Source: Beroe forskalii (taxonomy: Eukaryota > Ctenophora > Nuda > Beroida > Beroidae). From it: a DNA stretch of 64,000 nt. The stretch is taken from contig WFMF01000037.1 of assembly GCA_011033025.1 (NCBI GenBank), forward strand, positions 248,001-312,000, in the 5' to 3' direction. Position numbers and translations under genes: made by a program. Numbering within the stretch: the stretch's first letter is position 1; each line of letters opens with the position of its first letter. Under the pieces are notes generated by a model. That model saw nothing but the letters and a program-made list of their open reading frames with translations. It had not been told where the DNA came from and did not search any database. Shown here in pieces: positions 10,931 through 60,691 of this stretch.

Positions 10931-13900
10931 TTAAAAAGAAGTGCGCGTGTAGACTTGGCATTCAATACAAATCAGCATATCATAGATCAAAGCCTGATAT
11001 CTTTTTTCACTGATCACGACATATGCGTAGTGGAAGAAGGAGCACATGGAGAAAACACTGTAGAGAGTAAGGACATTCCCGGGGTTAACCCCCACAACCA
11101 CACTGAGAAACCACATGAGGAAGAGGGGGATCAGAGGGGGCTCTATCAGGTTACACCGCGTGCTAGACATCTGGTTTATCATCAGCCGGCACTGAGGGAG
11201 ATGGGGTTAGAAGGAGGGTTAGAGGGGAGTGAGTTAGAGGGGAGAGCTTGGAAGGGAGGGGGTAAGAGGGGAAGGGTTGTGGGAGGGGTTTAGAGGGGAT
11301 GGGGTACAAGAAGAGAGGATAACCCCCACAACCACACTGAGAAACCACATGAGGAAGAGGGGGATCAGAGGGGGCTCTATCAGGTTACACCGCGTGCTAG
11401 ACATCTGGTTTATCATCAGCCGGCACTGAAGTGAGATGGGGTTAGAGGGGGATGGAGTTGGAGGGGAGGGGTTAGAGGGGAGTGACTGAGAGGGGAGGGG
11501 ATAAGAGGAAAGGGGGTTAGACAGGAGGGGGATAGAGTGGAGGGAGTTAGAGGGGAAGTTATGAGCCCATCATGCACGAAAAAGTAAAAAGATGGATTAC
11601 CACAACGTTTGAGAATGTGAAGCCGTAAGCTATAGTCCAGATCCTAGGATGGGACATATAAGTGTCAGTACAGAACACCGGAAAGGAGCACAGCAGGAAG
11701 TTAAGGATGAAGTAGGGCACCCAGGGTCGGAACATCTCCAGCCATGTGTTCTGTTTGTGAGTCCCTGCTTTGATGGCCCTGAGAAATTAAATGGGTTTTA
11801 GAATTTTAGATCCTAATTAGAGATGCTGTCAGCTTGCATAACTGTATGTCTATTCAAGGGTAAACGATACCGTGAAAGCCTAAAATTCAAGGTTATGTCA
11901 TCGGTCATCGAGTGATGATCGCCTGATGATGAACAGATGAGAAAGGTTGAAGAATGCCGGAAGTGAGTAACATTCAATGGAAAGCGTGCATTCTGCGCGC
12001 GTCAACCGCGCGCTATTTCGCGCACAGTCTATCACAAATTTCTACTCGCGGCGAACGCCAAAGTCGAATGAAATTTGATACGAAAATGTGACATCATGTC
12101 GTGATGAAGTTGAACTTCCATTTGCTCATCTGTGACGTGCTTGTTAACATGACGTACTAGTAAGACATGATAATGTAATCAGTAATGACGACAACAGATA
12201 ACTTACAAGTGCACGTTAAGACAGCTGAGACCGAGCGAACCTAGCATTCCAACTGAAAAATGGAAGTTCAAAATGTGTTATCAATAAAATGCAACTTCAA
12301 AATTGCAATTTTTTAGGCATATAAGGAGAAAGTTGTGGTAAAAACATGCGATTGAATAAATTAAAATCCGCTGTTACAGTCACTTCAAGAAACACTCGAG
12401 ATGAAGATTAATTGGATACCTCCATAGAAATATAAAAGGAGATTATTATTCTCCCGATCTTAAAAATGAGTTAATAAAAGCTTCTTACCCGGCAGTAATA
12501 GATACATGATGTGGTTCAAAGGAATAAAGTTATCTGCAAAGAAGTTCTTCAATCCAACTGGAGTCATGAATCCAGCAAAGAAGAACAGTGTTACCACAAT
12601 CTGCGGCGATTGAGCGATAAGAAAATTTCGATATTTTGTTGATAACCGATCAACTGAACGATCACATTTATGACATGATAAAATTTTGAAAATATAAAAG
12701 AATCAAGATTTACGAGACTCGAGTCAAATAATAATAAGAATTTGCAGAATTTAAGTAAGAACAAAAAGGAGAGAAAAAGACCGTCCACCCCACTACATCA
12801 CTTACACACTGTGCGATATCAAATAGCCATGGTAGGTACAGGACCCCAGTGTTGTATTTCTCCCAATGAGAAACCCAGAAATTAAAGGTGAGACTGAGCA
12901 GTAGGAAAGGAGCGTAGTATAGGTTTATACCGCCACTTTCTGGATCCGTGCCAAATACACCTGGGATAAAGTGCAGTGAATATTTTTGCATCATTTTACT
13001 GTTCATTTGAAATAGTTTGACGAAATTTCCAATAGAAGAAAATAGTGGAGTAGAGGAGTAGCTATTATTTATTTCAGTTGCTATGCGTGAATTAACCTCC
13101 GCGGTGTGAATAAAAAGCTATTAAAGCGTACTCTTGTTCTCTTGAATCCAGGAGCCGCAATATTGCGGTGAATTAGTGCCTTTGTATAATATTATCATTA
13201 TTCCATATTTTTAACAAAATATATAACGTTAGTGCCCTCAATCTCAAGACCTCGATCATGTGTCTAGAATAAAACATTCGCTGTTTCGGAGTTTATAAAT
13301 AACTCTTTTATTTACCATCGGTCCATCATGAAAGATCTAACACAATAATATGACAATGAATACAGTTGCTGCTTCATGTGGGCTAATAACATATGCGGTG
13401 AATAAAACAGTTGGTATTCGTGGCGAATGGATGGTGATGCGTCATCAACTGATCACTTTGAGGCATGATAATGACGTCACTCTCAACCACTTACTTTCCG
13501 TGATCAACCCACATTATGAGAGTATGTTCAACACTACTTCTGCAAGTGACAATACATTTCGTAATGTATATACATACATGGTACGGAGTTCCCTACTGGA
13601 GATGATAAGAAGAGGTGGAGAGGTCTATGTTGTATGTTGAACACGATAGGTACACGGGTGAGAGAGAGAGAGATGTCCACATCAGATCGCATGGTAATGT
13701 GGGGCGCCGTACCACCTATTGCTATCTGCCTATTGTACACGGTGTAGATTATGTATAGCGAGGTGTATTTCTGTCAGAGCAAGTGTTGGGTACCGAATGA
13801 CAGCAAATATATCATCAGAGTGCTAGTGAGGGGAGAGCAGAATAGAGAATGTGTGTCAAATGACACCTTTTATTACCAATCAATCTTTATTCTTTATTAG

Positions 13901-16900
13901 CTGTTCAGTCAAATGGCTGAGACGAGTACTTTTTCTCATGATCTAAAACTTAGATAGAAGGTATAGGGATCGTTCATATATAACCTTATTAGGCAGGGTA
14001 CATTACCTTATTTGGCAGGGAGTTTTCAAATGATGACGCTACACGTTGTTGCCCTATTGTCACTGCTATTGTCAGCTGTACATGGAGAGGTGCTTAAAAT
14101 CGGACAGAAATTTATTGCTTATATTATAATGTGAACGATCCCGGAGTCGGTCCATTAGCTGACATTGTCCGATGCAGCAGACAATAGTTACATTTGAATC
14201 GAGTACAGTGCGAATGTGTTAACAATTGACAGACCATGGTTCAGACATTTGAAGATTAATGGGGGTTTCTAAAAATAGAAAATTGTAAATCTAACTGTTC
14301 TTAAACATGTTGATGGAATATTGAAATACGAATTTTAAATGGAATGCTATTCATTACTTCATTAATTAGCCGATTTAAGTTCACATCATTGAAGCAAGTA
14401 TTGGTGATTTGTTGATATCTTACAGCTAGCATGAGCAACACTTACTCATTAGGGGCACTTACTCATTAGGGACACTTACTCATTACGGACACTTACTCAT
14501 TAGGGACACTTACTCATTAAGGGACACTGGTAACATGATTTGTTGATATCTTACAGTTAGTTGATACCTAACAGTTAGTATCACTTACTCATTTGTAACA
14601 CTTACTCATTAGGGACACTGGTAACATCCACATGCAGTTACTGTCAATCCCGTGATCCATCAGCTCTCCCAGCGGGGATCCGGAACCTGAAATAATGCAT
14701 GAAATATGAAATGATGCATTAAATAATGCATGAAATGATGCATTAAATGATGCATTAAATGATGCATTAAATAATGCATGGTGTTAGAATTAAGGAATTT
14801 CAATAGCGACTCAGAATTAGACAGTGCACGGTAATTCAGATTCATATGTAAATCGATGAAAATGTAATTTTAACAATTGGTATTGGGAATTTCAGACGAA
14901 ATTTTATTGTATTTCTATCTCCAAACCACAGCTTGCTACAACTCTATCCAATGTCCGCAAAATGCAGTTTTATTACCCAACAATACACCAATTTAAATTC
15001 TATTTATCAATCTGCCAATGAAAAGCTACATAAGTACACAGCTAGGTGTCACTTTCATTGTTCATGATACGATGTTGTATTGCCATTACGTTATAACACA
15101 CAGTAGATCATTGAGTTTAAATAGAATTGTGCGATCAAACTTTCAGTTTCTTGTTGTGATGTTGTAACATTGGTTTTAAGTTTCATTTCACATCAAATGG
15201 AATTGGAATTTGGTGCTAAACTGCCAAATTCATTTTCCTTTTAAAGTTTTTACATTATTATTGATAAAGATGATCTTGAAATGATAAGATAACACTATAA
15301 TAGGACTTCCCATCTTAATCTAATAACTACCGTCCTTTTCCCAAACGGGAAAATTGCAAGTTTTGCCTCGAAAATGAATCCTCAATGTTTATTAACCAAA
15401 CTGCAGGACAATTGACTTAAGTTGAATTCATGAATTGAAATTAATTTTTACAGGGTTCCAGGACTCTGGATGACTGAAGGAATGGACATGGCAAAAGTAG
15501 AAGCAGCTCACAGGGCACTACTGTTTCAAAACAAAGAAGATCCTAGTTTAGTTGAGAGGAGCGATGAAATACCTTTCTGCCATAGTCTCGGTGAGTTAGA
15601 GATAGCATCAGAAGTTTACTTTTCATGGCAATCATTACATTTACAGTGCTCGACATTCAATCCCCAATCTTAAATCTTTTTCGACATCCACAGAACGCAT
15701 CGATAGATAAGGTAATTACTTCAAGGTCTCTGTATCTTCCTCCTATTTCCAAACCCCACCACCCCTCCTTCCTCCCATAGCCCCCTCCCCCGAATCAGTT
15801 GCTCCTTCTGGACTCTCCAAGGGTTATTCCCCCTCCCTTCTCCCAAAGTTAACCAACCCTCCGTCTAATTCACTCCTCCCCTCCACTCCTCCAATCACTT
15901 GCCCCTTTTGAACTCTCAACCTCCCTTTCTCCAGGAAGTGACGGTAGGGTTTACCCTTCTCACAACTACCACGGGGGTACCTGGTCAGACAGACTGGCGT
16001 CATGTGACCTCTTTCAGTCACGTGATACCGACCTCTTCATCTGCTGCTTTCCCAGATCAGGTAATCAGGTATATGATCCACCACTCCGCTAAAGTTGAAA
16101 TCTATTTCCCACAGGGTGCAAGCACGGGAGTACTTGCCTCGGCTAGTAGCTTCCTCTCCTGGGCGCCGCCTGGGCCCTCGCAGGCCCATGCCCCTTCTAG
16201 TATAGTAGAGTAGTAGAATTAGCGAGGATAAGACACAGAGCGACGATAAATTTCTTTCGAAAAAATTTGCAAAGATTTGGAAAAATGAACCAAAATTTGG
16301 TGATGAGTAGTGAAAGAATCGTGAAATTGTCAAACCTTTTCAAGATGTATCTACCTACTTGAAACTAAATTATGAAATCCTTCGCTTTTCCGGGATGAAT
16401 GATGATCTTCCCTTCTCCAGAAGCATAAAAGTTAAACTTGTGAGGTTAAAGGAATCCGAAGATAAACATCTGCTGCTTCCCCAGATCAAGAGCAACTCAA
16501 ACCTGCATATCCCATTACATGGGTCAATAGGGCAGAGAAGTAGTAAAATGGCAGATCCGGCAGATCCAATCATTCGAACACTCAAATCTCAGAAGCAAAT
16601 TGCAGGTCTTTAAAGTTCAAACAAGTGGTCAGGGCATATTATGGTACTTATTAATCTCTTCACCAGGGTTCCAATTGGTGTCAGAACATGATAAAACACA
16701 TCCTGAACAAGCCTCTGGAGATGGTGACCATTGATCTGGTGCGGTGGTTTGAGGGTCACTCCAACACCCAGCTGGAGGAATTCTCTTCACCCAGATTCTT
16801 CAAGTCACAGTGAGTACTAAAAACAGCTTGAAACAACGTATGTATACATCTATTGAATAAGACATTATATCCCTGACCAGAGCAAATATCTTATGATCTT

Positions 16901-19900
16901 ACTAAGCTAAATCTAACACTAAAATAATGATTGCAAATTCCAATCATCTAATGAACACTGAACTGCCATCCCTGACCAGAGCAAATATCTTATGATCTTA
17001 CACTAATCTCACACCAAAAGAATGGTTTTATTTCCTGGGGGCCACAATATTGAAATAAGGAGTCAATTGCAAATTCCAATCATCTAATGATCACTGAACT
17101 GCCATCACCCTCGTAGCCTTATGATACTCATTACATTTCTCATTTCCTCTACAACCTCACATTACCCTCCACTCAGTCTGCACTACAAGAAGCTGCCGGA
17201 GGGTGCTAAGTCCATCTACATAGTCAGGAACCCGTGGGATAACTGTGTAGCTACCTTTGAGGTGCTCAGAGGCTACTGTACATTTGGAGCAGAGGGTTAG
17301 TGAAAGTCACATTAAATTACTATCTTAGTACAGGAACCAGCTACTATACACTTTTGCATTTCCAATCTTGACTCTTGTAAACATTTAACGATGAAATTTC
17401 ATAACATTAATTGAAAATTCCACATTGAATTCATGATCCAAATGACCAAATATGGCCCGGAAGTTTTAACCCTTTATTCTTTCACCATTTTACTCCAGGA
17501 CCATCGATTGATATCTCAATAAACTCTGAACCTCTTCAGATCTAACGTGGGATGACTATGTCGAGTTGTATCTGAAGGGTAAAGTGCTGTTTGGTAGCTG
17601 GTTCGAGCATGTGGCACAAGCCTGGAAACACGCCTCAAACAACCCTCATAACACTTTATTCCTGAGGTAAGGTAGAAGTAACTAAGTTACCATTCTTTAT
17701 GTTACTTTATTGCTGAGTTACTAAGTTACCATTCCTTTTTGTTACTTAGGTACAAACTCCCATTCTTTTCATTCCTTGATAGAAGCTACCATTCTTTTCA
17801 TAAATTCTTAAGAGGAACCTTCCATTCTTCTTATGGTAGATCTTCCCATAATATGCTTGGAAACGATAGCCTATTGTTACATTATCAGAACATAGGAGGA
17901 ACATGCATAATATCCTAATATGCACGGGATATGTGGGGGACCTAATAATATGAGCCATTATGTATACAATATACATATGTAATGTGTAGTGACTAGTGTG
18001 TACACTATCATGTTATTATAAACCGACGATACACATCATATTGTGTAGAACTGGTGTCCTTTCCGAAACAGATTTAAGTCAAAAAACCAATTCAGTAGAA
18101 AGTTAATTGCAGACTCACACTACAATTTCGACTTAAGTAAGTTTTTGACTTTTGTCTGTTTCGGAAAGGACCCTGACTTCGTACCATTGCACATATTGCC
18201 TATTCTAGTTAGCAGCGATCCTCTAGGTATATAATTACACTGACAGCGCCACCACTCAAATCATCATTATGTTTGTCTAATTACACCACTGCGCCGCATA
18301 CATAATCATGGATAGTCTCATATTTATGTATTTCAAGGTTAATTTCATAATTGATATTTTGATTATCAATCGTAACTCTAAATACCAGCTAGCAATGTCT
18401 CCTCTTGAATTGCTCCCTCAGTACACGATAGTGCAACATTTCTGTACTGTGGCTGTGGATGTAAATAAACATAAACAAATTATAATGCTGTGATTAACAA
18501 AAATCAGTGAATGCATTTACTGCATCTCATTGCACGACAAAACTAGACTATAGGCTGTATTATTTGGGTATTTCTGCGATCAATAGAAAACATGTTATTC
18601 AAGGTTGCGGGTACCCACTAAAGAGTAAAGTCGGCTTTATAACTCCATAAGTATTGTTCGAGTAAATTGTATATTTCGCACTTAACATCGTCTCTATTGA
18701 GGTTTCATTGAAAACTTTAAAATAGATTTAAACTTATCAAATGAATTCAGGCCAAATCAAAAGGTTAATATCTGCATAGGCATACTCATGGTCCTCCTCA
18801 ACATCCTTATTAAAATCCATTGATGTCATCCTTGCTGTTGTCACGCCTTCTGGAGTCGTGTCCGCTGTTGCCACGTCTGCTGTTGTCTTGCCAACCGTTT
18901 CCATTAATGACGCTTTCACCTTGCCGGTGTCAATATCATCTGTAAGAACGTCCTTGATCCCAGTCTCAATCTTATCTGTCGGACCTATCTGTCTCTTTGA
19001 CATTAATCTCCCTCCCCAATACACAATCACGCAGCCAACTGCAATCATTGAGATGCTTGCAGCAATCACCGACATAACCACGCTAACAACGGCTAAAATA
19101 TCCATGGTGTTACTGTTGTCAATGACACTGGTGTCACTGTTGTCATTGGCACCGGTGTCACTGTCGTCAATGACACCAGTGTCACTGTTGTCAATGACAC
19201 CGGTGTCAGCAGGACTCACCACGCACAGACCTCTGTGAGCAGTAAATCCCTCCGGACACTCATGACAATAGAACTCCATCTCCGTGAAGGTGGTCTGGAC
19301 ACACGAGACACTTTTTCTCGACTCTATACTCTCCCAACCCACACTTGTGACAGGAAGCTGATCCGGGCTCTGAGAAGCGTAGTCCTGGACACCTCTCACA
19401 GACATCAGACGTGGCGGTGCTGTAGGAATCCGCCGGGCATTCCTCGCACGTTCCATCTCTTCTGCCGTAGCCCGGCCAGCACGTGCACGCCGAACTGTTA
19501 CCAGGGCTCCCAGAGTGCGCGGCGCACGCGCGGCACTGCCCTGGACTCCAGAATGTGTTTTTGGGACAAGTCTCACACGTGGCTGAGTGAGTTGAATGTG
19601 TGACGGAGTACAGAGGACATTCCATGCAGGTGTAATCCCCCGAGCTGGCATTCCGGGAGAGGTAGGAGTTGGGTTGGCAACCTGAGCAGGATATCTTGGC
19701 TAAGTGACTCACTCCAGAAGGGACGAAGAAATCTTTCGAGCATTTTTTCAATAGATTTTCGAGAGATAATCGTATCTGCAGGGTTGTGACAAGCAGTTTG
19801 TGAAAAGAATCTTGACGGATGGTAGCCAATCATCAAAGGCACTGCTCTCATCTATCGCTGCATTGGTCACAAAGTCGAGTTTTTTAAAGTTCATGATCTC

Positions 19901-22900
19901 ACAGATCGTGGTATAATCGACTGATAAATCTTCCGTTATCATATCACGACATATGGAATATGGTGTACCTGACATATAGGCAATGAGAATTCCAGTGTTA
20001 GACTTTACCGGAACATCTATTCCTTCCCTTAAATTCCAAATCTCAAACTTTTCTAAAGGCTCGGAAGTGTCAAAGGCGTGTGGCGTGAAGTGGAAGTATG
20101 CTGATGCTGCTAGCAAAAGAATTATCTTGAAGAGTTTCGCCATACTGCAACAACTTCGTTTCGAATAACAGCGAAAATGAAAAATAAGAGATGAATAAAG
20201 GACTAATCTTGACAGTTTACTGGACATAATTTCATGCCATTAAAGTTCATGTGACTTCTCGCAACTCATGACTTCTGCTTTCATTCGACTGTCATGAATA
20301 ATCAAACCGAACAATGAACAGACAGGCATGGCTGAAATGGTGGTGAGTTGGAGTAATGGCCATAAATGAGGCTCGTGACCGAAAGTAGAATTTGGATCGA
20401 TTCCTGAGACATTCCTTATGGCTACAGTGCTAATCCCTCGATTTCCGAATAGATGTAGCCTATACTACATAAGTCTTCAAAATAAAGTCGTACCAACATT
20501 CAGGGCCACAATTTTCTGAAAAGGCGCAGATAGTGTAATTTCTAGTTTGGTGCTATGTAAAAGGAACTCGAAGGTCCGTAAAGGACATCCCGGTCATGTC
20601 TCTCCCACTCCCCCTTAAGTTTCCCACCTCTCTAATCCCCCACTCCCTCCATTCTCACTTCCATCCCTCTTCCCACATCTCACATCTATATCTACAATCC
20701 CTGGGACCACTACAAACCCCTCATCTTTTTTAAGGCATGAGAGGGAGGACACACCTAAATATTCTCATATTTCTAGAACGCTGTCCATCACAGGGAATGA
20801 TAATACAACGGACTTATGGTGGGATATACTTCCTCAAAGTTAGTTTAGGATATATAATGATATAATTACTATAGTGACATGAGATAAGTGACATGAGATA
20901 AGGGCAGCAACCATTGACATACATAGAACATACTTAGCTATGATAATTATATCATGTCGACCAATATTATTTGTCTTCCAGAGACCCGCAGAAATATTAT
21001 GTAATTATAACACTAATTACAGCCCATTTACATTGTTCATATGTAAGCTGTACAGGACAAGCAATATTGCTGTGTACATTTGATATAACTACACACTCGA
21101 AGGGTACATGTAGTACATGTAGAATAGTACACGGTATACATTATACATTAAATAACAGGGTTACATGTAGAACAGTACACAGTATACACGATATACATGA
21201 GATAATTACAAGAGTGGGAGTGAGCATGGTACAATACTAGCTCTCTAGATCACACATCCCTCTAATTGCAGCATTATAGAGTTACTAGCGTTTGCCCGCG
21301 AAGATTCGCGGAAACAATCAACCTGATACCTTTGGTTCATCTTGTATCCAGCTACTTGCTTCATGACCTCATCTTGGAATTTGTTAAGTAATTGAATCAC
21401 CATTACCGCTTACCGAGGATTACAGATATTCGCGGAAATGCACCGCACAACATACTTTGTAATTTGAGATCACCTATATAGTATTGCCTTTCCATAGCAT
21501 ATATTAGCGTTAGTAAACGCATGATATTTATTATGCAAATAACTAATCAACGGATGGTCCAATTCAAATTTTCCTTAAATAGTAATAAGCCCCTTAATTG
21601 GGAGAAGATTTTCCCGAAAAAAACGATCAAAACTATCAAATGCACTTCTTAAATAGTCATTTTACACAGACAGACAGACAGATGCACGAACACTCTGAAA
21701 TTATTAATATAGATAGGGAATATTTAGCTCTGCAGTGTGCTGGAGCCTCTTTAGAAGATCCAAACATCAACCCACTTACTCAGGAGTAAGGGAGAATTAG
21801 AATTCCTTCTTAAGGATAAACTCCAGATTTACTCATCAGAATGCATAGGAAAAGTAAACTGTGATGAACAATTTCTGTCGTATGAAGAGCAGGTGTATTC
21901 ACCATATATTTCAGTCCAATCCGGTCAAATCGTAAATACATTGACATTATTCTGGCACTTGAACTGCTTTTGAACTCCCAAGCTGACTACAGCGACTGAT
22001 CTAATTCCTCTTATAACACGATATAATAACGTCACTACAAGGCCGTCTTTCAACGCTACCACGCACAAAATGCCGTCCTATTTCACTGCAAAAAGCCATA
22101 TAAAAGTTAATAAGGCACTGCGCGTGTGTCTGTACATTGTACACTTGTAACACTATCGCATACACGAGGCGACGTTGTGCTGTATTGTACTGTATATCAT
22201 GTTCCCGTCACTTGGAAACAAACGGCTTATCAGTGGGCGGCTCAGATGGGCGTAACTGTATCCATTCGGGGAAGTTATGTCTTAACTTTTTGATAACCAC
22301 ATCACGTAAAAACCATCTTAAAATGTATTGACCATTGAAATTTAAAGGAGTGCCTCAACTCTAACAATTCCGTCATTGTTACGTGCAAGTTGCAAGCAAG
22401 GTGTTCACTGTTCAATGAAAAACTATATAATTATGCATACTGTATTCAATATTCAATAACCATGTGTAAAAATTATTGTAACAGTGCTCAACTTATTGTA
22501 ACAGTGCTCAACTTCATTTATAATTAATTTGTTTTCAAGTTTTATTATGGTGAAATAAGAAAAGCATGTGCATTTTGCTTGCAAGCATATTGCATAATAG
22601 AGAGCGAATAAAAGTACAAGTAAAGAAAGATAAAAGCAAATTGCGAAATTCTGAGACTCCAGTGTATTTTAACTCTTCTCCTTTAACTCTAACTCTGGCT
22701 GTTGCAGGTATGAAGACATGAAGACTGACGAGACGGGTACTGTCCTAAAACTATCTGAGTTCCTAGGCACCTCTGTAACTGAAGCAAGAGCTAAGGAAAT
22801 TGCTGACATCACCACTTTCAAAAGCATGAAGAGGGATCCTACAGCTAACTTTGAGGTTAAATTTCTCGTCAGAACTCGAATCTCGATCCAGCATTCTATA

Positions 22901-25057
22901 GATACCACAGTAAACAATTCTAAACATCATTCCAAACATACATTATATGACTAAATTCAATACCTGTGTTCGAATTCTTCAATCTACCTTAAAAACCACA
23001 AGTCTCTCATATCAAATAAAGAAATTTCGATTTTACATAATAATTTTTTTGCAGTGGACATCTTTGTTCTTTAATGAAGGATTCCAGTTTGTGAGAAAGG
23101 GAGAAGTGGGTGATTACCAAAACTACTTCAATGAGAGCCAACTATTGGATTTCAAAGAGAAACTTAAAGAAATATCTAATGATGGATTTCACCTATATGA
23201 TGACTTCATATAAACTTTATTAGAAAAGGTGATATTAATCTATTGGATTCCAGATAGTGAATGATTAGAATCAAAATATTATGACATATGTAGTGTGGAT
23301 TTTTGCAAACTTATCGTTTACTAACCTGTCCTTCTTGCCTGCTTTCCATCCATTCCATCCAAATGATGTGATGCTGAGTGTAAAATAGCAGCAACAAACC
23401 ACACCCATATTGGAATGATAACCTGCATAGACAGGCAATAAATGGGAATTTAGATATAATCATGGCTTATTCTGGTTTATAATCATTATTATAGATATAA
23501 TGCACATGGATCTTCCTATTTATTAGGTTCATCCTATTTATAAGGACTAATATCTGTTTCAAAATATCAATCTTTGAACTTAAAACTTTAAAAGAAAGAC
23601 AGCTGGTAATATGGAACTTCTTCAAACTTTCATAGGACTATTATACTTGTACATAATATATTTAATGCAAAATCATTTTTGGTATTGAAGATACCGCCAA
23701 CTTAAAAATGCAATCAATTACATACCTTATCTGGGTCATTTCCAGCACTGAAGTTCCAATCATAGTGGGCTAGGAGGCAGTAGTATGACAGAAGGCATAT
23801 GTAGCCAGTAAATGTCATCACATTTGGAGCAACCCATGTAGGGAAGAACTGAAAGGTTTCAGTGAATAAAAAAGTAGTTGGCAATCCAAATGATCACCAG
23901 AAACATAAAAAGCATATAAGATATTTTTGGATCAACCAAAAGAGATTATAATAAGAACCACAAATTCCATGGAATACATTAAAAACTTACAGTAACACCC
24001 CAGTCCCATAATGGGTGCATGACATACTTTGATAGAGGAGAGGTATCTATAGCAGCATACTTATATGATTTTTATGCTGATAATAAGTTGAAGAAATCTT
24101 GTTCAGTCATTGATGGCTTATGGAAATGATTGTTATATACCTTATTGGCCTTTATTTAGCCGGCCTTTTTTTTAACCGGCCCTTTTTTTAACCGGCCCTA
24201 TGGACAAAAATCGAATCAATTTTGAACCATTTTAGCCAGCCCCTTGGACAAAAACTTTTCTAGTGGTCACCAGACCAAAGATTTTTTGCTCTGAAATGGA
24301 CATTAAAACCCATTTATACTTAATAAATTACACCAAAAGACCCAAATCCCGATCTTAAATGATGATTAAGGTCATTATCTTGTTATATAATGACTTTCAA
24401 TAGAATAAAAGGCAAGTCATAAAAGTTTCATTTGACCTAAATTAACTGGCCTTTAATTTGACCGGCCCCACTTTAACCAGCCTTTTTTTTAACCGGCCCT
24501 TTGGACAAAAATCTCGAAGTCATTTTTGTCCTTAAGGGCCGGTTAAATAAAGGCCAATAAGGTAATAAAACAAATAAGTTTAATAAAACAAATAAGTTTA
24601 TATTTAGTAGCACATTACACCATAATTTGAACAGTTGAATTCTTTCTGGTCATATGACAATTGTGATTTAGATTAAATTAATATGAACATAATATACTGA
24701 TATAATAATTTAAAAACTGAAATAATAAAATAAAGTAAAGTCAGGATATCCTAACAAGCTGCATAACCATTATAGTGAACCATTATAGATCATTAAGCAA
24801 TATTTAACAAATTAATATCACTGAATTTCTGAATAGTTCTGGTCTTACTCAATAAGCAGTTATAATATCTTCTTGTTTAAGTTCACAGCCCAGTGCATTA
24901 CAGGTTAACTTACCTTATATTTTGAGAAACCATTAAGTTGTTCAGTACTGAGATTTGGCATTTTGTAACAATATAACTTGTCAAAAATACTATTCTTGCT
25001 CTGTGAATGTATTTCTTCTTCAGGTACTTCTGTTCCTTTCTCTACATCTTCAACCAT
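10931..25057 (-). CDS. SELENOI: Ethanolaminephosphotransferase 1 (SELENOI/EPT1-type), multi-exon
   Basis: CDP-alcohol phosphotransferase that transfers phosphoethanolamine from CDP-ethanolamine to diacylglycerol in ER or Golgi membranes (family knowledge). Exons seen: 24914-25057 (ATG, 48 codons), 23991-24059, 23726-23848, 23326-23422, 14642-14686, 12806-12960, 12489-12600, 11601-11778 and 10931-11191 (TAA). The full catalytic motif D-x2-D-G-x2-A-R-x8-G-x3-D-x3-D is present, split between the exons at 23.3 kb (LDGMDGKQARR) and 14.6 kb (GELMDHGIDS). SHWEKYNTG and QMSSTRC are typical of EPT1 rather than CHPT1/CEPT1. Hydrophobic segments run through most exons. Phases fit except that two small exons seem missing from my model: one between 12961 and 14641, one between 11779 and 12488. 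The C-terminus ends at TAA without the Sec UGA of vertebrate SELENOI. The 8.6-kb intron 14687-23325 contains another gene on the opposite strand. Confidence 0.88.
11196..11565. repeat. G-rich simple repeats flanking the exon duplicate
   Basis: Irregular units of the form GGGGTTAGAGGGGAGTGAG occur at 11196-11319 and 11429-11565, on both sides of the duplicated exon block. They lie inside the EPT1 gene (pyrimidine-rich on the coding strand) and may have mediated the local duplication. Confidence 0.8.
11320..11428 (-). repeat. Duplicated copy of the last EPT1 exon's 5' part
   Basis: A 109-bp block at 11320-11428 is repeated nearly exactly at 11087-11195. Both copies carry an acceptor (CAG before TGC CGG CTG) and encode CRLMINQMSSTRC followed by a membrane segment ending VVVG. 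The 11087-11195 copy runs on in frame to the stop at 10931. The 11320-11428 copy runs instead into G-rich repeat sequence with no convincing donor. It is therefore probably a non-functional exon duplicate, though alternative splicing is not excluded. Confidence 0.8.
13965..14142. mobile_element. MITE, AGGGATCGTTCA family, copy 1
   Basis: The ends AGGGATCGTTCATATATAA and ATTATAATGTGAACGATCCC are imperfect inverted repeats. The same terminal sequence bounds the element at 42898-43064. Lies in an EPT1 intron. Confidence 0.75.
14433..14640. repeat. CACTTACTCATTAGGGA tandem repeat
   Basis: About eight copies of an ~18-20-bp unit CACTTACTCATTAGGGA, interrupted by a GTTAGTTGATACCTAACAG segment. It abuts the 3' side of EPT1 exon 5 (14642-14686). 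Confidence 0.8.
14692..14780. repeat. (AAATGATGCATT) tandem repeat
   Basis: Six or seven copies of a 12-bp unit AAATGATGCATT or AAATAATGCATG, immediately upstream (minus strand) of the EPT1 exon 5 acceptor. Confidence 0.8.
15470..23213 (+). CDS. Cytosolic-type (PAPS-dependent) sulfotransferase, seven exons
   Basis: Transfers sulfate from PAPS to small hydroxyl or amine acceptors (SULT family knowledge). Exons: 15470-15590 (acceptor at 15452-15453; ATG at 15470 is the first in frame), 15935-16060 or 16068, 16667-16809, 17177-17295, 17540-17666, 22708-22855 and 23055-23213. Visible motifs are the 5' PAPS loop FPRSG..SNW, the 3' phosphate motif SIYIVRNPWDNCVATFEV, and the C-terminal RKGEVGDYQNYF, matching the KGxxGDWKxxF signature. 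About 316 residues, normal for a SULT. The second/third exon junction is out of frame with the strongest donor (16061). A donor at 16069 restores frame but adds Gly-Asn-Gln in the PAPS loop. The whole gene lies inside an intron of the minus-strand EPT1 gene, and its stop is 112 bp from EPT1 exon 4. Subfamily and substrate cannot be read from the sequence. Confidence 0.88.
16870..17106. repeat. Direct repeat inside a sulfotransferase intron
   Basis: The block starting CCCTGACCAGAGCAAATATC and ending near GAACTGCCATC occurs twice in a row (about 16870-16974 and 16974-17106). The second copy carries a roughly 40-bp insertion. It lies in the intron between sulfotransferase exons 3 and 4. Confidence 0.8.
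18055..18171. mobile_element. Small foldback/MITE-like inverted repeat
   Basis: Ends GTCCTTTCCGAAACAG and CTGTTTCGGAAAGGAC are exact reverse complements about 85 bp apart, and subterminal TTAAGTCAAAAA is also mirrored. No coding capacity. Located in sulfotransferase intron 5. Confidence 0.75.
18737..20143 (-). CDS. Cysteine-rich type I membrane receptor-like protein, broken by two frameshifts
   Basis: No introns are needed. ATG at 20143 opens a signal peptide (MAKLFKIILLLAAS). A ~100-residue N-terminal part follows with cysteines spaced loosely like an SRCR domain (weak). Then comes a cysteine-rich block (about 19215-19690) of repeated CxxC units such as CPKNTF and CEECPADSYSTA, resembling ephrin-receptor-like (GCC2/GCC3) or TNFR-type modules. 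A stalk holds four DTGVIDNS-like 8-residue repeats (24-nt tandem, about 19108-19206). One transmembrane helix (about 19015-19105) and a cytoplasmic tail of about 90 residues end at 18737. The frame changes twice, within 19750-19829 and near 19260-19310, so this is either a young pseudogene or an assembly with indels. It sits wholly inside the 5-kb intron 5 of the plus-strand sulfotransferase. Confidence 0.65.
20580..20720. repeat. Pyrimidine-rich low-complexity stretch
   Basis: C/T-rich tract with many CTCCC and CCCAC runs on the plus strand, inside sulfotransferase intron 5. No gene seen. The remainder of that intron, 20228-22700, shows no further coding exon. Confidence 0.6.
21290..21725 (+). 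repeat. Probable old retroelement 3' end
   Basis: Starts with TAGCGTTTGCCCGCGAAGAT and ends with a CAGACAGACAGACAGATGCA run followed by TTATTAATATAGAT. This layout is common in RTE-like or SINE tails of invertebrates. No open frame of note. Assignment is by general resemblance only. Confidence 0.35.
24138..24564. mobile_element. 427-bp foldback/MITE with ACCTTATTGGCC ends
   Basis: TACCTTATTGGCCTTTATTT at the left is mirrored by AAATAAAGGCCAATAAGGTA at the right. Subterminal repeats (TTTTTAACCGGCCC and similar) recur four or more times in both halves. Located in EPT1 intron 1. Confidence 0.85.
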
Positions 25058-46177: not shown

Positions 46178-46597
46178 CGATGGGTAGGTATAATTAATAG
46201 GTTTCCGAGTACTGTATAGTAAAATCTTTCAATAGTAGCGCTAAAGCATTGATGAGATTTATATGAATTAGAAAATGGGGTTTCCAATATAGAAATGACT
46301 AACTTGCAGTATGAATTATGAAAGCATGACTGGAACTTATGATTTGTAATTTGATAATTACTGTCCATTATGATAACTAGTCGGTTCCCGTCCTACGGAC
46401 GGTGAATGATGGCAGCCGCATGAGCTAACGGCCACATGTCCCTTTGACAGTGATTTGACCGTGCGAGTTTGGAGGGGAAATTCGAAACTTTAATTTCTGC
46501 GAAAAAAGCTTCCCACGCCCCCAACGGTAACCCAATATTGCCGACAATATTCTCAAAACCTTTACTCATCATAAGCACCTCCCTCGGAGAGGTGTCC

Positions 46598-47962
46598 ATG
46601 GCGGACGCGGGTAATTTAAATACTAATAGTTCTTCTTGCGCCACAGATTTTGTACCAAATCTGTCACAAAGCCAATCATTTTTCCGGTCAAACACTTGCG
46701 CTGCGCGCGATCATAGATTGCGCGCGACCGACTACCTTCCCGATTATTCTATCGAACACCTTATTAACACAAACTTACCCACAGAGGAGGAGATGAAGGA
46801 GGAGGAGGTGGGGGGCCAGCCCCGCCCGAGCACACCTACCGGTGACTCGATAGAGGCCAGGGGCCCCACCCCGCCACCCCCATCCCCCACCCCTACCCAC
46901 TCCCTGCCCCCCCTGCCCGCGACCCCTAGTGAGGAGCCGGCCGCGGTCTCCCCTCCCGCCCCCAGCCAGGATCACACTGGCACCACCCCACCACCACCCC
47001 CACCACCAGCCCCAAGGGTGAGAGTTGCCTCGGAGTGCAACGGGGCATCGGGCTCCTCGAGGAGCTGTCCCAAGGACAAAGGGGCCCGGTGCCCTTTGAG
47101 CGAAAGGGCTAGAGAGGCGAGGAGGGAGAAGGAGAGGAGGAAGAGGAAGAGGCAGAGACAGGAGAAGGCGGCGGAGCTGAGAGGAAAGGAGGGAACGGCC
47201 ATGCATCAGGTGCAATCCTGCAATGAAGAGGATAGAGCACATGAGTATGAGCCAGACACGAAACCCCCATCCGCTGATACAGCAACAACAACAGCAACAA
47301 CAACACCCTCCAACACACCCACCAACCCAACCCCAGCCCAACCCACACCTGCCCAAACGGCACCACCGCCCCCCATGCGGCCTAACCGGTCCCCTGTGGA
47401 GGTCTACGGAGGGGTGGGCCGCTCGCGGTTCACCCTGACGGCGACCCTACCGGGGGTCGAGGAGGGAGAGGCCAGGATGGCGATCCTGGACGCCCTGCTC
47501 CATTCCGGGGAGGAGTACACGGTGGGCATCCCTACGCGGGTGCCCGGCGGGTTTGCCTTCCCGGTTGACGAGGACGACTCGATAAGAGTCGCCAGGGGCG
47601 TCCTGGAGGCCAATGGGGTGACGGTGACCCTCACACGCACATGGAACAGGTACACCCTGCATGTTCCGCAGGAGTACCATTTGTTCCCACTTGAACGCCT
47701 GATCTCAGGCATCAATCAAAGGAACAGCCGGACGGTCCGCGGACCGACCGGCATTCCTGACAACGCACTTCGTGGTGTCAACGTGATGGAGGAGGGGGGA
47801 GGGGAGGGGAGTGGCCAGCCGCGGAGGGTACGGGCCTGGATAGATGTGTCACCAGAGGGCGAGGAGTATCTCCGAGCTAATGACATGCTACTCAGGACCG
47901 TGTCCTCGGCGATTCGGCTCTGGCCGGCCGCCAGTAGCCGCCCGGCCCCAGACAGGTCGTAA
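46598..47962 (+). CDS. Retrotransposon ORF1 protein
   Basis: ORF1 proteins bind element RNA into a particle (family knowledge). The frame is open from ATG 46469, but ATG 46598 sits in CCATGG, a better initiation context, and lies just after the repeat unit in the leader. From 46598 the product is about 454 residues. The N-terminal half is acidic then Pro/Ser/Thr-rich. A strongly basic stretch of Arg/Lys/Glu (about 47085-47190) follows, then a Thr/Pro/Gln-rich linker. The globular C-terminal ~180 residues (47390-47962) carry RFTLTATLPGVEEGEARM and VRAWIDVSPEGEEYL. I see no CCHC knuckle. The 3' end overlaps ORF2 by 119 bp in another frame, suggesting reinitiation or frameshifting to make ORF2. 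Base composition is much more GC-rich than the surroundings. Confidence 0.8.
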   Translation: MADAGNLNTNSSSCATDFVPNLSQSQSFFRSNTCAARDHRLRATDYLPDYSIEHLINTNLPTEEEMKEEEVGGQPRPSTPTGDSIEARGPTPPPPSPTPTHSLPPLPATPSEEPAAVSPPAPSQDHTGTTPPPPPPPAPRVRVASECNGASGSSRSCPKDKGARCPLSERAREARREKERRKRKRQRQEKAAELRGKEGTAMHQVQSCNEEDRAHEYEPDTKPPSADTATTTATTTPSNTPTNPTPAQPTPAQTAPPPPMRPNRSPVEVYGGVGRSRFTLTATLPGVEEGEARMAILDALLHSGEEYTVGIPTRVPGGFAFPVDEDDSIRVARGVLEANGVTVTLTRTWNRYTLHVPQEYHLFPLERLISGINQRNSRTVRGPTGIPDNALRGVNVMEEGGGEGSGQPRRVRAWIDVSPEGEEYLRANDMLLRTVSSAIRLWPAASSRPAPDRS

Positions 47963-50900
47963 GACCTGTAGGGGGTTGGGCGGGGGCCCCCTCGACTCTT
48001 TTCTCCGCCGCACCAACAAGCCCCCACAACCCCCGACCCCAAACCAAACCTTAACTTCTCCCCAACGCGGGGTGGGGCCCCTCTGCACGACCAACAGAGG
48101 AGCTACAAGTAAAGGTAAGCAAAATCTTCTATCAGTTACCCAAATCAACCTCAAGAAAAAGAAGAATGCATGGGACACGTTAATCGCGTTTAATAAGAAC
48201 AAAATTAACCCCATAATTCTTGCCACGGAGCCATACTCGAACTCCAACAACATCATCCCCAAAATCAATCCTCACCTGAAAACATACTACAGCACAGATA
48301 GGTCTAACAAACCACGAGCGGCTGTAGTAGTACACAAAGATTTAGATAACCATTGCCGAGAGCTGACACAGTTTACCACCCCAGACCTCATAGCAGTGCT
48401 TCTGAAACATGAGGACAAAGAAATCATCTTCGTGTCATCCTACATGGACATAACACACAACATACCCCCCACCAACTTCATACCTCTGGTTAACTACGCA
48501 AATAACAACAAACTTCCTATCATTATAGGCTCTGACACTAATGCACAGCACACCCTTTGGGGTAACAAAACCTGCAATAACCGGGGAGAAAGCCTTGTTG
48601 ATCTCCTCAGCAGCCTCGGCCTAAACTGGGTCAATAAGGGTACTACCCCAACTTTTCTTAACTCCAGAGGCCATGAATCTGTTATTGACCTCACCATCAC
48701 TAACAACACTGGTAACGACCAGGTCGAGAATTGGAAGGTTGATCTTAGCTACTCTAATTCCGATCATCACTACATTACATTCAACATAACTTCGAAGAGA
48801 CTCAACAAGCCTCGGCAAGTCCGGCTTACCAAAAACACAGACTGGGATGTATTTGATACCTTCCTGACAAATAACCCCACTCCCATCCAGGACATTAACT
48901 CAAACAAAGACTTGGACACTGCTGCAACCAAACTCAACGAGCATCTAATTAAGGCTTTCAATAAAGCATGCCCAATTACACACATCGCGAGCACCATCAA
49001 AAAACCACCCTGGCTGACCGCTGAGGTGGAACAGGCACACCGCGACATGAAGCGGAAACTCATGACTGCACGTTCCAGTAAAACCCAAGAACACTGGGAA
49101 TCCCTCAGACAGAGCAACAGAACTTACAACAAACTTCACACCAAAACAAAACAGGACGAATGGAGGAAATTCTGTGCCGACACTGAGACAGTCAAGGAGT
49201 CGGCCAGAATGAACAAAATTCTCAAAAATTGCAATGACAAGACAGAGAAGCTAGAATCTGTCTACAAATCAGATGGCACCCTCACGACCACACCGGAAGA
49301 GACACTCGAGGTTATGGAGAGAAGTCATTTCAAAGATGATGCTACCTCTAATCCTCATACAGACCATACTATCCCAGACACACATCTTCTAGACAATATT
49401 TACAGTGACACAAGAATGAAGGAAGCAATAATGTCCTTCGACCCCCTCAAAGCAGCTGGACCAGACACACTTCAGCCAATCACAATTCAACAAGCGTGGA
49501 AGCACATCAATATCGCTGTGAAGGCAATCATGATCAAAAGTCATGAAATGCAGCATGTTCCCAAACCTTGGACCGAATCCAACGGCATCTTCATCCCCAA
49601 ACCTGGAAAGACTGACTATAACAAACCCAACGCTTTCCGCACTATTACACTCTCACCCACTCTCCTCAAGCTACAGGAAAAGATAATCCTTTGGCATATG
49701 CAGCATGACCTCGGCATGGAGGACAAACTTAGCAAAAAGCAGTTTGGCTTCAAGAAAGGCACCTCAACTGAAACAGCTCTCCACAAAGTCATCCACAAGA
49801 TCGAGAAGAGAATAGCCAACAAGGGATATGTTCTAGGCACCTTCCTTGACATCGAAGGGGCCTTCGACAATGTGTCCTTCAAAGCTATCTCGGAAGCCAT
49901 CGACAAGTCCCCCCTAGACCCAAGCACAGCCGGCTGGATCAAGGGAATGGTCACTAACAGAAATGTTACAATTTCACTCAAAAACTCCTCAAGAAGGATC
50001 AGAATTAAAAGAGGCTGCCCCCAAGGAGGCATTCTCTCACCCTTCCTCTGGAATCTTGTACTGGATGACCTCCTTCAGTACACAGCAAAGCACATTCCAG
50101 GATATCTGCAGGCTTTTGCTGATGACTTAATGTCACTAGCAGAAGGGGATGACCTCGATGTCATCTGGCAGAGAACACAGACCACCATCAAGACTATAGA
50201 GACATGGTGTGAGTCGAAGGGACTCAACATCAGCGCTCTCAAAACCAAACTAGTCATGTTCACATGGAACAGAAAGTGGACCTTACGCCCAATCAAAGTA
50301 ATGGGCTCAATTATTGAGCTCAGTAAAGAAGCAAAGCTTCTTGGAGTAACACTGGACAACAAACTCAACTTTAACTCACACATCGACAACATTACCAAAA
50401 AATGCATAGGGACTATCTTCCAATGCAAGCGAGCCATAGGCCCCACATGGGGACTTACTCCTAAAGTATGCAAGTGGATTTACACCTCCATTGTTAGACC
50501 GGCGCTGGCATACAGCGCTGTTGTCTGGATCAAGGCAACTGACAACAAATCCAATACCAAGAAACTCGAAAGAGTTCAAGGACTCTCACTCAGGTATATG
50601 ACTGGAGCCCTACCTTCCACACCTTACAACACTCTTAACTATCTCACTAGTATACCTCACATTACCGACTACCTCAAAGGTGAAGCTGCCAAGGGAGCAG
50701 TCAGGCTCATGGGGTACGGAGATTGGACCCTAGAAACAGCCCCCACCGGCAAAGGAATCATCAAAGCTCATAGCACCATATCGAACAACCTAATTTCTGA
50801 GCTCAAAGTCCCAGGGCACAACCAATGGGACACTATTAAACCCCATCTTATTCTTGACCGCAACTATAACATCACATACCCTCAAGACGCTCACTCTGAC

Positions 50901-51824
50901 AACTACACCAACAACCTGGACAAAGATATCAAGCTTATCAGCGTCAACAACATTTGCTGCTACACAGATGGCTCTAAAACAGACCACGGGGTGGGCGGCG
51001 GCTACGTCATCAAGGACCCCCACAACGAGAACACAACCGAGTACCACTTCAAGATGAAAGATCACTGCACGGTCTTTCAGGCCGAAATAGCAGCACTTAT
51101 GCATGCTGCTGACAGACTTAAACACTACAACAACAAGCTTATCACCTTCTGGAGCGACAGCCTATCGGCACTCCAAGCTCTTTCCAACAGAATCCACAGG
51201 AACAAATCAGTTGCAGACTGTCACAAGTCACTCACCTCCCTAGCTCATGACAACACAGTCCAAGTCAGATGGATAAAAGCCCACATCGGACACTGGGGAA
51301 ACGAGAAAGCAGACCAGCTTGCCAAGGCTGGCACCAAAGATGGTAACCCCGTCACCAGCCTTGTCCCCATTTCATTCATCAAACACTTAATCAATACCAA
51401 GGTAACCAACCTCAGCCACGACAGGTGGATCACCAACAAACATGCTCACACTGACATGATCATAGGTAACCATCAGAAGAAGGTTTTTCACACACTTAAC
51501 AACAACACTGGCAACCGTATCCGGTACCGAACTGCTATCTCCATTATTACAGGACACATAGGACTGAACAAACACTTGCACAGAATAACACGTGCTGACA
51601 CACCAAACTGCCCTTACTGCACTGACACAGAGGAGACAGTGGCACACTTCATCGGACAATGCCCTGCTTTTATGAGAATCAGAGGCAACACACTCGGGAC
51701 ATACTATGACTCCATTAACGACATCATGGACAACAACAGTATGGACGCACTGATCAATTACACACTCCAAACCAAAAGACTACAGCGAACAGAGGAGGAG
51801 GCGGACAATACAGGGGTGACATAG
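47844..51824 (+). CDS. Retrotransposon ORF2: endonuclease, reverse transcriptase, RNase H
   Basis: 1,326 codons without a stop. Endonuclease (about residues 96-315): QINL, ATEPY, GSDTNAQH and SNSDHHYITF catalytic motifs present. Reverse transcriptase (about 575-860): FIPKPGKTD, FGFKKGTSTETAL, FLDIEGAFDNV, GCPQGGILSPFLW and the catalytic AFADDLMSL near residue 757. RNase H (about 1035-1165): YTDGS, FQAEIAAL, FWSDSLSAL and HIGHWGNEKADQLA keep all four acidic positions. A C-terminal CPYC-x9-H-x4-C zinc motif lies near 1255-1270. Nicking of target DNA and target-primed reverse transcription follow from the family. The start at 47844 lies inside ORF1, and the first ~90 residues before the endonuclease are low-complexity, so the true start may be later. 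Confidence 0.93.
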   Translation: MCHQRARSISELMTCYSGPCPRRFGSGRPPVAARPQTGRKTCRGLGGGPLDSFLRRTNKPPQPPTPNQTLTSPQRGVGPLCTTNRGATSKGKQNLLSVTQINLKKKKNAWDTLIAFNKNKINPIILATEPYSNSNNIIPKINPHLKTYYSTDRSNKPRAAVVVHKDLDNHCRELTQFTTPDLIAVLLKHEDKEIIFVSSYMDITHNIPPTNFIPLVNYANNNKLPIIIGSDTNAQHTLWGNKTCNNRGESLVDLLSSLGLNWVNKGTTPTFLNSRGHESVIDLTITNNTGNDQVENWKVDLSYSNSDHHYITFNITSKRLNKPRQVRLTKNTDWDVFDTFLTNNPTPIQDINSNKDLDTAATKLNEHLIKAFNKACPITHIASTIKKPPWLTAEVEQAHRDMKRKLMTARSSKTQEHWESLRQSNRTYNKLHTKTKQDEWRKFCADTETVKESARMNKILKNCNDKTEKLESVYKSDGTLTTTPEETLEVMERSHFKDDATSNPHTDHTIPDTHLLDNIYSDTRMKEAIMSFDPLKAAGPDTLQPITIQQAWKHINIAVKAIMIKSHEMQHVPKPWTESNGIFIPKPGKTDYNKPNAFRTITLSPTLLKLQEKIILWHMQHDLGMEDKLSKKQFGFKKGTSTETALHKVIHKIEKRIANKGYVLGTFLDIEGAFDNVSFKAISEAIDKSPLDPSTAGWIKGMVTNRNVTISLKNSSRRIRIKRGCPQGGILSPFLWNLVLDDLLQYTAKHIPGYLQAFADDLMSLAEGDDLDVIWQRTQTTIKTIETWCESKGLNISALKTKLVMFTWNRKWTLRPIKVMGSIIELSKEAKLLGVTLDNKLNFNSHIDNITKKCIGTIFQCKRAIGPTWGLTPKVCKWIYTSIVRPALAYSAVVWIKATDNKSNTKKLERVQGLSLRYMTGALPSTPYNTLNYLTSIPHITDYLKGEAAKGAVRLMGYGDWTLETAPTGKGIIKAHSTISNNLISELKVPGHNQWDTIKPHLILDRNYNITYPQDAHSDNYTNNLDKDIKLISVNNICCYTDGSKTDHGVGGGYVIKDPHNENTTEYHFKMKDHCTVFQAEIAALMHAADRLKHYNNKLITFWSDSLSALQALSNRIHRNKSVADCHKSLTSLAHDNTVQVRWIKAHIGHWGNEKADQLAKAGTKDGNPVTSLVPISFIKHLINTKVTNLSHDRWITNKHAHTDMIIGNHQKKVFHTLNNNTGNRIRYRTAISIITGHIGLNKHLHRITRADTPNCPYCTDTEETVAHFIGQCPAFMRIRGNTLGTYYDSINDIMDNNSMDALINYTLQTKRLQRTEEEADNTGVT

Positions 51825-56147: not shown

Positions 56148-56901
56148 CTAATACTTCAGAAAAGGAAAATCTTCAAGGATTTTAGTCCTTCTTTCGCCAT
56201 AGTCAAACAAGAGTTCGTCTCCAGGAGAAATTGGATTTGCAGCCGAAAAGTAAATATGAGGCTGTCCATCGACTGCGATCTTCTTAGGGTTACAGTTTGC
56301 TGCTTCGTGAATGGTTGATGAGCCGACCCAGTGTACCATCGTCCTTCGTCGCGTCGATGCAGTAGGATTGTCCATCGTGGGAGAAGAAGAAAAGGTAACC
56401 TCCATCTTCTTCTGCACATTCTTCCCTCCGCAGTCCCTCACTCCTGGAAACTAGCTCGCCACTATATTCAACCAGGAAGTCTCCCTCCTCGAAGCGTTCT
56501 GTAGCATATACTCCACGCCCCTTTCCTCTGGAAGTTTTGACTTCTAACCCGCTGTTGTCGGGGTGCCGGATCTTCTGACACAGCTGCTCCATCTTCTCAG
56601 CTGTTGTCATCTTGGACCGTGAAGATCTTCTGATCACAGGAGCCTGAGGTGAGGAGGGGAGGGGAGGCTGCACGAGTATATTGTGTTGTTCAGTTGCTGG
56701 AGAAGGAATTGCAGCTCCGGGAGATAAGGCGGATGGTTGAAGGGAGGATTCCTTGGAGCCTGAAGTGCCGTCTCTCAATTCCCTCTGCTGCCGTCTCTTC
56801 AGTATTTTCCCTTCCCTGTCTCGTCTCTTCATCTCTTCATACTGCTCCTCTGTCTGGTTGTCTCTCCACTTCCGTGTACGATATTTTGAAGTTGTAGGCA
56901 T
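56148..56901 (-). CDS. KMT5A-like SET-domain lysine methyltransferase, intronless, one frameshift
   Basis: KMT5A (SET8) monomethylates histone H4 lysine 20 (family knowledge). Start at 56901 (MPTTSKYRTRKW) is preferred; the frame is also open from ATG 56997. A basic N-terminal region is followed by a Pro/Ser linker and the SET domain: GRGVYATERF, FLVEYSGELV, SYCIDAT, GRLINHS, DELLFDYGER, ending FPFLKY with no post-SET cysteines, as in KMT5A. Frame is lost between LINHS and NCNP: an AAA at 56296-56298 appears one base too long, creating a premature stop in the first frame. The rest of the domain is well kept in the next frame, so this is a very recent lesion or a sequence error. Lack of introns suggests a retrocopy or mobile-element origin. 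It is divergent to the decayed gene at 61938 across a foldback element. Confidence 0.8.
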
Positions 56902-58367
56902 CTTCAAACAATCGAGAGGTATCAATCTGTAGGTTTTGTAAAAGCAAAAAGAACGATGCTGCCCTCCAATTGCATTACCTTTTATCCATTTTTTCACAAT
57001 GAACTTCCTTGTTAAGTGATTGACTTAAGTGGATCATATGTCACCAAGGTGATGCTGTCTCACATGCCACATTCGTTGCTTAAATCATTTAAAATCAAGT
57101 TCTTGATGAGTGGATCACATATCACCACTTAACGACGTAGCTCGTTGTTCTTCCTTAGGGTGTATTCCATGACACCACTTTAGCACTGTGAAGTTTATGC
57201 TCCTTCTTAGCCCCCACCCAGAATGCGACATCGCCATGAAGAGCACCGACATCGCCTCAGCGGAATCAGTTATCGCCTCCTTCTGAAAATTGTCGCCAGC
57301 AATTACATCATTTGCGACAATTTTCTAAGTAGGCGACCATTTAGTTTTGTTTTTGTCGCCTACAATGTATTTTTGTCGCCTAAGTAGTACTTGATTATCA
57401 TAATTTGTCGCATGTAACAAAAAAATAATCGCCTTCTGGACTATATCCAAGTCTTGGGCAAATTTGTCGCCTCATGTAAGAAATTGTCGCTTACTCTGGT
57501 GATGTAATAAATCCGTCGCCTATAAGAAAAAAAATAATCGCGTTTGATATTTTCGTAAATATCCGAATTGTAGATTAAAATCGTCGCGTATCCAGGTTGA
57601 TAGTCGCTTCAGGAATCTTTTGAAATTTAATTAGAATATATAAATAATGTTGAAACAACGTGTGGGTTACATTTTACACATGGCAGAGAGAGAGCTTGAA
57701 TTGAAACATCTTTCTCAGTTTTACGATAGCAAAGAAATGAAATTGCGTTATTCGTAATTAATGATACACAATGAAACTATTTGAACATGATTTAATGGTG
57801 CGTGGTTTAAAACTAAAAAGTAGGCAGATACGTTGACGTTATAATCAATGGCACTATCATCATCTTTGAACTTTGATATGGACATTGGACATGCCACATA
57901 CCTTTTCCCTTCCTGCCCTCCTTAATGCAAATATGCGATCGAATTAAGTGCTGCAGCTCTCTTCCGCATCCAGTTCTGATCTAATGAAGCGATCAGTGTG
58001 TGTTTGTTTAATAGCTCGTAATGAGGTTAGAAGAAGGTCTAATTTCATACTTGCCCCTGTCTCTCAATTCTTGTGTGTAAATGTAAGTGTTGCTGTTATG
58101 TCATCTTCACGAGTAATGTAGCACATCATGATACACGCACACATTCACTGAAATACTGAGTGATTTTTTTGTCGTAGTTGTGAAGTATATCGCAAAAAAT
58201 AAAACAATTGTTAAAATTTGTTTAGCATTAAAGAATAACTTAAAACAAAATGTCAAACAATAATAATTCATATAAAAACAATTAATTTCATGAGTGAAAA
58301 ATATAAAACTTGTAAATAAGAAAATATAGGGACGCTTATTCAAAAAAAGCTGATATTATTATTAATC

Positions 58368-60040: not shown

Positions 60041-60691
60041 TCAAATCGGATCTATAGAAAAAATCCGGTTTACCGGAACGGATCGGACCGGATCTGGATT
60101 TTTTGGCAAGATTTTACCCTTAACCGTATCAAATCGAATAAGCAACTTTGCTTACTCAGAACACCTATACCTCATTTTTGTTTCGATATGCTGCGTTAAT
60201 ACTTTAATAATCCATCTCATAGAGTTTTTATATGTACATACTATTGTAAGTTACAGAGTCCGTAGTTCGATGCTTAGAATTTAGATAGGCAGTTAGTGCT
60301 TTATTGGATTGATTGGTTGGTACTGGAAATATGAACCACAGAAAATCACAAGTTAATGTCTAATTGGATGTTACTGGCTGTCAGGCAGTCAAACGACTAA
60401 TGGTCAAGGGACTAATGAGCCTCAATATACCTAGCAATGTATATATCTTTACAGCACTGAAAGGGATTCAATGAAAACTGAGACAGGGTAACTTGATCAA
60501 CTTGTTATTGTACGCATCAGAGTATTGAAGTATTGAATTTTCATAATTTAGGATATTCATATTTTGGTGAAACCCTCCGATACAGTAACCCTGTGATCCG
60601 GATCCAGTGAAATTTTGACCCTCAAACCGGACCGGATCGGATCGCCCAAAAAACGCCCGGATCCCGGACCGGATCTGAGATCCGGTCGGTT
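60041..60691. other. Spacer of the foldback element
   Basis: Non-coding. Both ends contain short CGGACCGGATC / GATCCGG motifs (60060-60105 and 60595-60690) that form imperfect inverted repeats. Confidence 0.6.

Follow-up and report, generated by a model that had tools for sequence, protein, structure and literature searches.

An EPT1/CEPT1-type gene on the minus strand contains, within one of its introns, a sulfotransferase gene on the plus strand, and this gene in turn contains, within one of its own introns, a receptor-like sequence on the minus strand, so that three layers lie one inside the other on strands -, +, -. The nested arrangement appears to be real in this assembly, and the most likely reading is that insertions into introns produced it, as an unremarkable case of two-level nesting in an animal genome. 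The stretch of DNA that was analyzed, a 64-kb window (C436:248001-312000), lies within a contig of 838 kb in a genome of 216 Mb and 1,134 contigs. The locus was read as DNA, open frames were listed on both strands, and exons were modelled by splice sites and phase. A first-pass annotation had proposed two nesting levels with alternating strands, and these are present in the assembled sequence. The coordinates that it gave hold for the span of EPT1 (25057 to 10931) and for the EPT1 intron at 23325-14687, as do those for the sulfotransferase coding span (15470-23213, plus strand) and for intron 5 of that gene (17667-22707; 5,041 bp). All of the sulfotransferase coding exons thus lie inside a single EPT1 intron, as in a nested intronic gene. 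The receptor-like sequence (20143-18737) sits inside sulfotransferase intron 5, where a doubly nested gene would lie, but it is frame-disrupted as assembled. The features are collected in Table 1.

Table 1. Features of the nested locus, with positions given in the 64-kb window
Feature	Position	Strand	Basis or remarks
EPT1/CEPT1-type exons 1-4	25057-24914, 24059-23991, 23848-23726, 23422-23326	-	GT-AG, phase-consistent; CDP-OH_P_transf Pfam; phmmer to CEPT1/CHPT1 structures
EPT1 intron 4 (8,639 bp), in which the sulfotransferase lies	23325-14687	-	GTTAGT...TTTCAG, phase 1 at either end
EPT1 exons 5-10	14686-14606, 12960-12806, 12600-12489, 12252-12207, 11778-11601, 11191-10931	-	Splice sites, phase, joined frame
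Possible second EPT1 terminal exon	11317-11429	-	113 nt, 99% identical to 11083-11195; copies acceptor and start of exon 10
Sulfotransferase, 7 coding exons, 316 aa	15470-15590, 15935-16068, 16667-16809, 17177-17295, 17540-17666, 22708-22855, 23055-23213	+	Splice model; Pfam; PDB matches
Sulfotransferase intron 5 (5,041 bp), in which the receptor-like sequence lies	17667-22707	+	GTAAGG...TTGCAG, phase 2
Receptor-like sequence, frame-disrupted as assembled	20143-18737	-	Hydrophobic leader, followed by ephrin-receptor-like repeats, a hydrophobic helix and a tail
High-copy repeat, ~434 bp, next to the receptor-like sequence in sulfotransferase intron 5	21282-21715		At least 40 further genomic places at 93-97% identity, among 365 candidates

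The outermost gene is modelled with 10 coding exons that join to 1,266 nt with zero internal stops, and all nine of its introns are GT-AG with matching phases. Pfam assigned the first 260 residues to the CDP-alcohol phosphotransferase family (PF01066, E 5e-9) and gave no significant family for the C-terminal 145 residues. Comparison with solved structures by phmmer, using a query without exon 8, returned five sequences, with CEPT1 and CHPT1 closest and a CEPT1 structure giving the best E-value (2.1e-24). NCBIfam gave weak matches only, far under the cut-off. The catalytic motif of CDP-alcohol phosphotransferases is DG-x2-AR-x8-G-x3-D-x3-D. Inspection by eye located it across exons 4 and 5, the residues DG KQ AR RT coming from exon 4 and the G...D...D portion from exon 5. 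Because the 8.6-kb intron 4 splits this motif and the two halves are complementary, there is strong evidence that the distant exons form a single gene. We rejected the idea that the halves come from two different genes, as they are complementary and phase-matched and share one catalytic motif split between them.

The 46-nt exon (12252-12207) was added to the model as the best-scoring among the candidates listed. It was sought because a stretch of protein was missing in comparison with human SELENOI, and because the neighboring exons were otherwise out of phase. The name EPT1, as against the CEPT1 or CHPT1 subfamily, is tentative and depends on that same SELENOI sequence. The model ends with TAA and contains no in-frame UGA, and a 53-aa piece of exon 6 was found at one place in the genome. 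The other eight introns measure 142 to 1,645 bp, and subtraction of the 7.7-kb sulfotransferase from intron 4 leaves about 0.9 kb, which is an ordinary intron size. Two further details concern the ends of exons. The possible second terminal exon, the upstream copy of a tandem duplication, reads in frame to a different, proline/serine-rich C-terminus, and its use would replace about the last 50 residues. The donor of exon 5 lies within a 17-bp tandem repeat (14415-14636, minus strand) that holds seven GTAAGT sites from 14605 to 14445; since GTAAGT recurs in the repeat units, alternative exon 5 donors are on offer.

The sulfotransferase has six introns, all of them GT-AG and with matching phases. 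Its protein matches the Sulfotransfer_1 family of Pfam (E 1.1e-45), residues 71 to 300 aligning with positions 1 to 246 of the 255-position profile, the domain expected of a cytosolic sulfotransferase (SULT). It also matches 44 sequences in the PDB, with a best E-value of 1.9e-33, and has zero matches in NCBIfam. The PAPS-binding loop of SULT proteins is usually of the PKSGTTW type. In this protein the loop reads FPRSG-NQG-SNW and is interrupted, being three residues (NQG) longer than in the two structure alignments shown. The additional NQG sits at the junction of exons 2 and 3 (16061-16068 / 16667, plus strand), and an alternative exon 2 donor 8 nt upstream would break phase. The longer loop may be either a real variant or the result of a one-base shift at this junction. 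At the other end of the first coding exon, the acceptor-like TTTTTACAG stands directly upstream of the first ATG, and for this reason an upstream exon may exist. A genome-wide search with the sulfotransferase gave 12 places, of which 7 are its own exons and the other 5 (C219, C716, C658 twice, C956) are 30 to 34% identical. Three of these five (L002, L004 and L006) lie in single open frames of 268 to 313 aa over approximately residues 65 to 306, without introns there, unlike the seven-exon gene.

If the 14.7-23.3 kb segment had been misassembled into the EPT1 intron, the nesting would belong to the assembly and not to the animal, but this is highly improbable on three grounds. Among the best candidates scored, DNA searches listed no full-length place other than this locus for 14687-17700 or for 17667-22707; the contig is long, at 838 kb; and the coding part of the sulfotransferase is entirely inside the intron, with no EPT1 exon lost. 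Repeats are found in two of the sulfotransferase introns, at about 16121-16455 in intron 2 and, as the high-copy repeat, in intron 5, which suggests that insertions enlarged these introns. RNA families at gathering scores and tRNAs were searched for across the 64-kb window and none was found. Elsewhere in the window, a LINE-type element (46454-51824, plus strand) has a 1,326-codon frame with endonuclease, reverse transcriptase and RNase H domains, and its start is overlapped by a 502-codon frame without a Pfam match. A long array of short repeats at 58320-60057 has long open frames on both strands.

The innermost member had been described as a gene, and its place on the minus strand within sulfotransferase intron 5 is borne out; an intact single frame is not supported as assembled, since the frame switches twice. 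The open stretches are 20239-19748, 19829-19260 and 19699-18737, which overlap and fall in frames 2, 1 and 2, and the changes lie between 19829 and 19748 and near 19268. The leader, helix and tail were assigned by eye. Pfam matched the middle stretch to Ephrin_rec_like (E 1.5e-8) and TNFR_ELAPOR1_6th (E 7.4e-10) and returned nothing for the first and last stretches. Three repeat stretches lie in the middle frame, and the hydrophobic helix lies in another. A relation of the first stretch to SRCR domains, suspected by eye, was not upheld: Pfam gave nothing, and comparison with family members gave a best E-value of 0.054, which is not significant. Given the base composition, the chance of an open stretch at a given place is about 7e-8 for 320 codons, 6e-5 for 190 and 2e-4 for 163. 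Because such open stretches are improbable by chance, the receptor-like sequence derives from coding sequence; as assembled, it reads as a sequence that stems from a gene but is disrupted.

Relatives within the same genome help to define the breaks. When one of them (L015) was aligned with frame shifts allowed, the alignment showed a 1-nt switch at 19268, and a second (L024) aligned over 19499-19209 without a shift, passing over a stop codon. An intron in place of the second switch is disfavored, since the alignment with L015 runs straight through it at the cost of a single additional nucleotide. At the first switch, a 41-nt GT...AG stretch (19816-19776) would restore the frame; we judge this intron the less likely explanation because it is so short. 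The middle stretch gave 25 genome matches, the best being itself, the next by E-value 37% identical, and others up to 43% identical over shorter stretches. No close paralog was found among these matches. Fourteen of the 24 other matches lie in open frames of at least 400 codons. A retrocopy origin for the receptor-like sequence is therefore unsupported, uninterrupted frames of that length being found in those 14 matches as well.

The disruption would mark either a recent pseudogene or errors in the sequence. All three genes could be intact in the animal, with the innermost switches representing consensus errors or a disabled allele, and we place this reading slightly below an even chance, as high as that because a SET-domain frame in the same window also switches and because stops are present within the covered segments of 7 of 18 control loci. 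The two switches aside, the receptor stretches keep their cysteine pattern, hydrophobic helix and tail, and the sulfotransferase exon 2/3 junction likewise looks shifted in comparison with the usual loop. The SET-domain frame (56148-57024, minus strand; E 4.2e-10) ends early, and the rest of the SET-like sequence is in an overlapping frame. Among the 18 family controls, abrupt switches occurred in 3 (4 in 31,692 nt covered) and stops inside covered segments in 7, so breaks are not peculiar to the receptor copy, although several control loci overlap and some of the switches or stops could be exon borders. The controls omit L017, which lies on one ORF with L015. Measured in this way, the receptor-like sequence has one switch and one stop in 616 nt covered, with its first stretch outside the coverage. 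This weighs against intactness, as the controls show approximately 0.13 switches per kb versus 1 in 616 nt for the receptor, whose other switch lies outside the covered part. Also weighing against it, the EPT1 gene, the sulfotransferase model and the 1,326-codon LINE frame are all unbroken in the same window.

The preferred account of the locus, two-level nesting built up by insertion, would run as follows. An EPT1/CEPT1-like gene would have gained an intron-bearing sulfotransferase, on the opposite strand, in a pre-existing intron. The sulfotransferase most likely arrived by movement of a segment of genomic DNA, because it keeps six introns. Its intron 5 would then have grown by insertions, among them the high-copy repeat and a receptor-like gene. 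The latter belongs to a large cysteine-rich family in which long uninterrupted frames are found in many members. Either decay or sequence error would account for the disrupted frame of the receptor copy as assembled. Each gene would presumably have a promoter of its own, and the nested genes would leave the host pre-mRNA by splicing. Mutual regulation would be possible, through polymerase collision or through a sulfotransferase 3' end that runs antisense across EPT1 exon 4.

The sulfotransferase stop lies 112 bp from EPT1 exon 4 (23326), as the first-pass annotation had claimed. That annotation went on to call antisense overlap of the transcripts likely, which we would lower to possible, the spacing favoring it and the position of the poly(A) signal being unremarkable. 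As a rough estimate, a poly(A)-type site turns up once in several hundred bases of AT-rich DNA. Past the sulfotransferase stop, the scan for poly(A) signals met its first one, an AATAAA, at 23437, on the far side of EPT1 exon 4, and it is plausible that the sulfotransferase transcript overlaps this exon antisense. One might imagine the overlap as a regulatory device kept by selection, transcription of the sulfotransferase holding EPT1 down by antisense pairing over exon 4, the bearer of half of the catalytic motif. The 112-bp spacing and a first scanned signal past exon 4 are consistent with such a device, but we consider it unlikely, since by the estimate above a signal in that position is unremarkable in AT-rich DNA. 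The precedent cuts both ways: in the C. elegans case as reported, transcription of the host is altered by the gene nested in it, yet the nested gene does so by inducing a short form of the host and not by restraint (PMC12274878). Less likely still is a fully working three-layer locus, in which an antisense sulfotransferase transcript over EPT1 exon 4 would tune EPT1 splicing, the receptor, co-oriented with EPT1, would be expressed from inside both introns, and its switches would be sequence errors.

The locus is a well-resolved case of genes accumulating within introns. Once relatives are sequenced it could help to date the insertions one after another, and gene annotation methods can be tested on it. 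It leaves knowledge of nested genes unchanged; because nested and doubly nested genes have already been counted in animals, it adds one more example to a known kind. Nesting seems to carry some cost, since overlapping genes in five metazoan genomes are reported to be fewer than chance expectation, with antiparallel ones enriched (PMC2330155). In C. elegans, 567 opposite nested pairs are reported, corresponding to 5% of protein-coding genes (PMC12274878). These share with the present locus a gene in the intron of an opposite-strand host; they are described as pairs and not as three layers, and in C. elegans regulation was put to the test (PMC12274878). Published counts of nested genes in sponges are 2,432 for Aphrocallistes vastus, 3,358 for Amphimedon, 5,032 for Sycon, 83 for Oopsacas and 0 for Ephydatia, and annotation settings have been suggested as the cause of the low counts (PMC10282587). 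The 2,432 genes of A. vastus are likewise nested in introns, one example being glassin, whose single exon lies within another gene; the account given of nesting there, as far as it bears on these counts, describes it without mention of double nesting (PMC10282587).

A close comparison is with the count for Hormiphora californensis, in which 2,357 nested intronic genes are reported, 484 of them doubly nested (PMC8527503). By that published count double nesting is common in one animal, and the description of two-level nesting as rare in the first-pass annotation is not supported. The Hormiphora set rests on an Iso-Seq-based annotation, whereas the present locus was read from DNA alone and its innermost copy is frame-disrupted (PMC8527503). 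In both, a gene, or here a receptor-like sequence, lies in the intron of a gene that is itself in an intron, with both strands used, and the example in the Hormiphora figure legend likewise has genes on both strands (PMC8527503).
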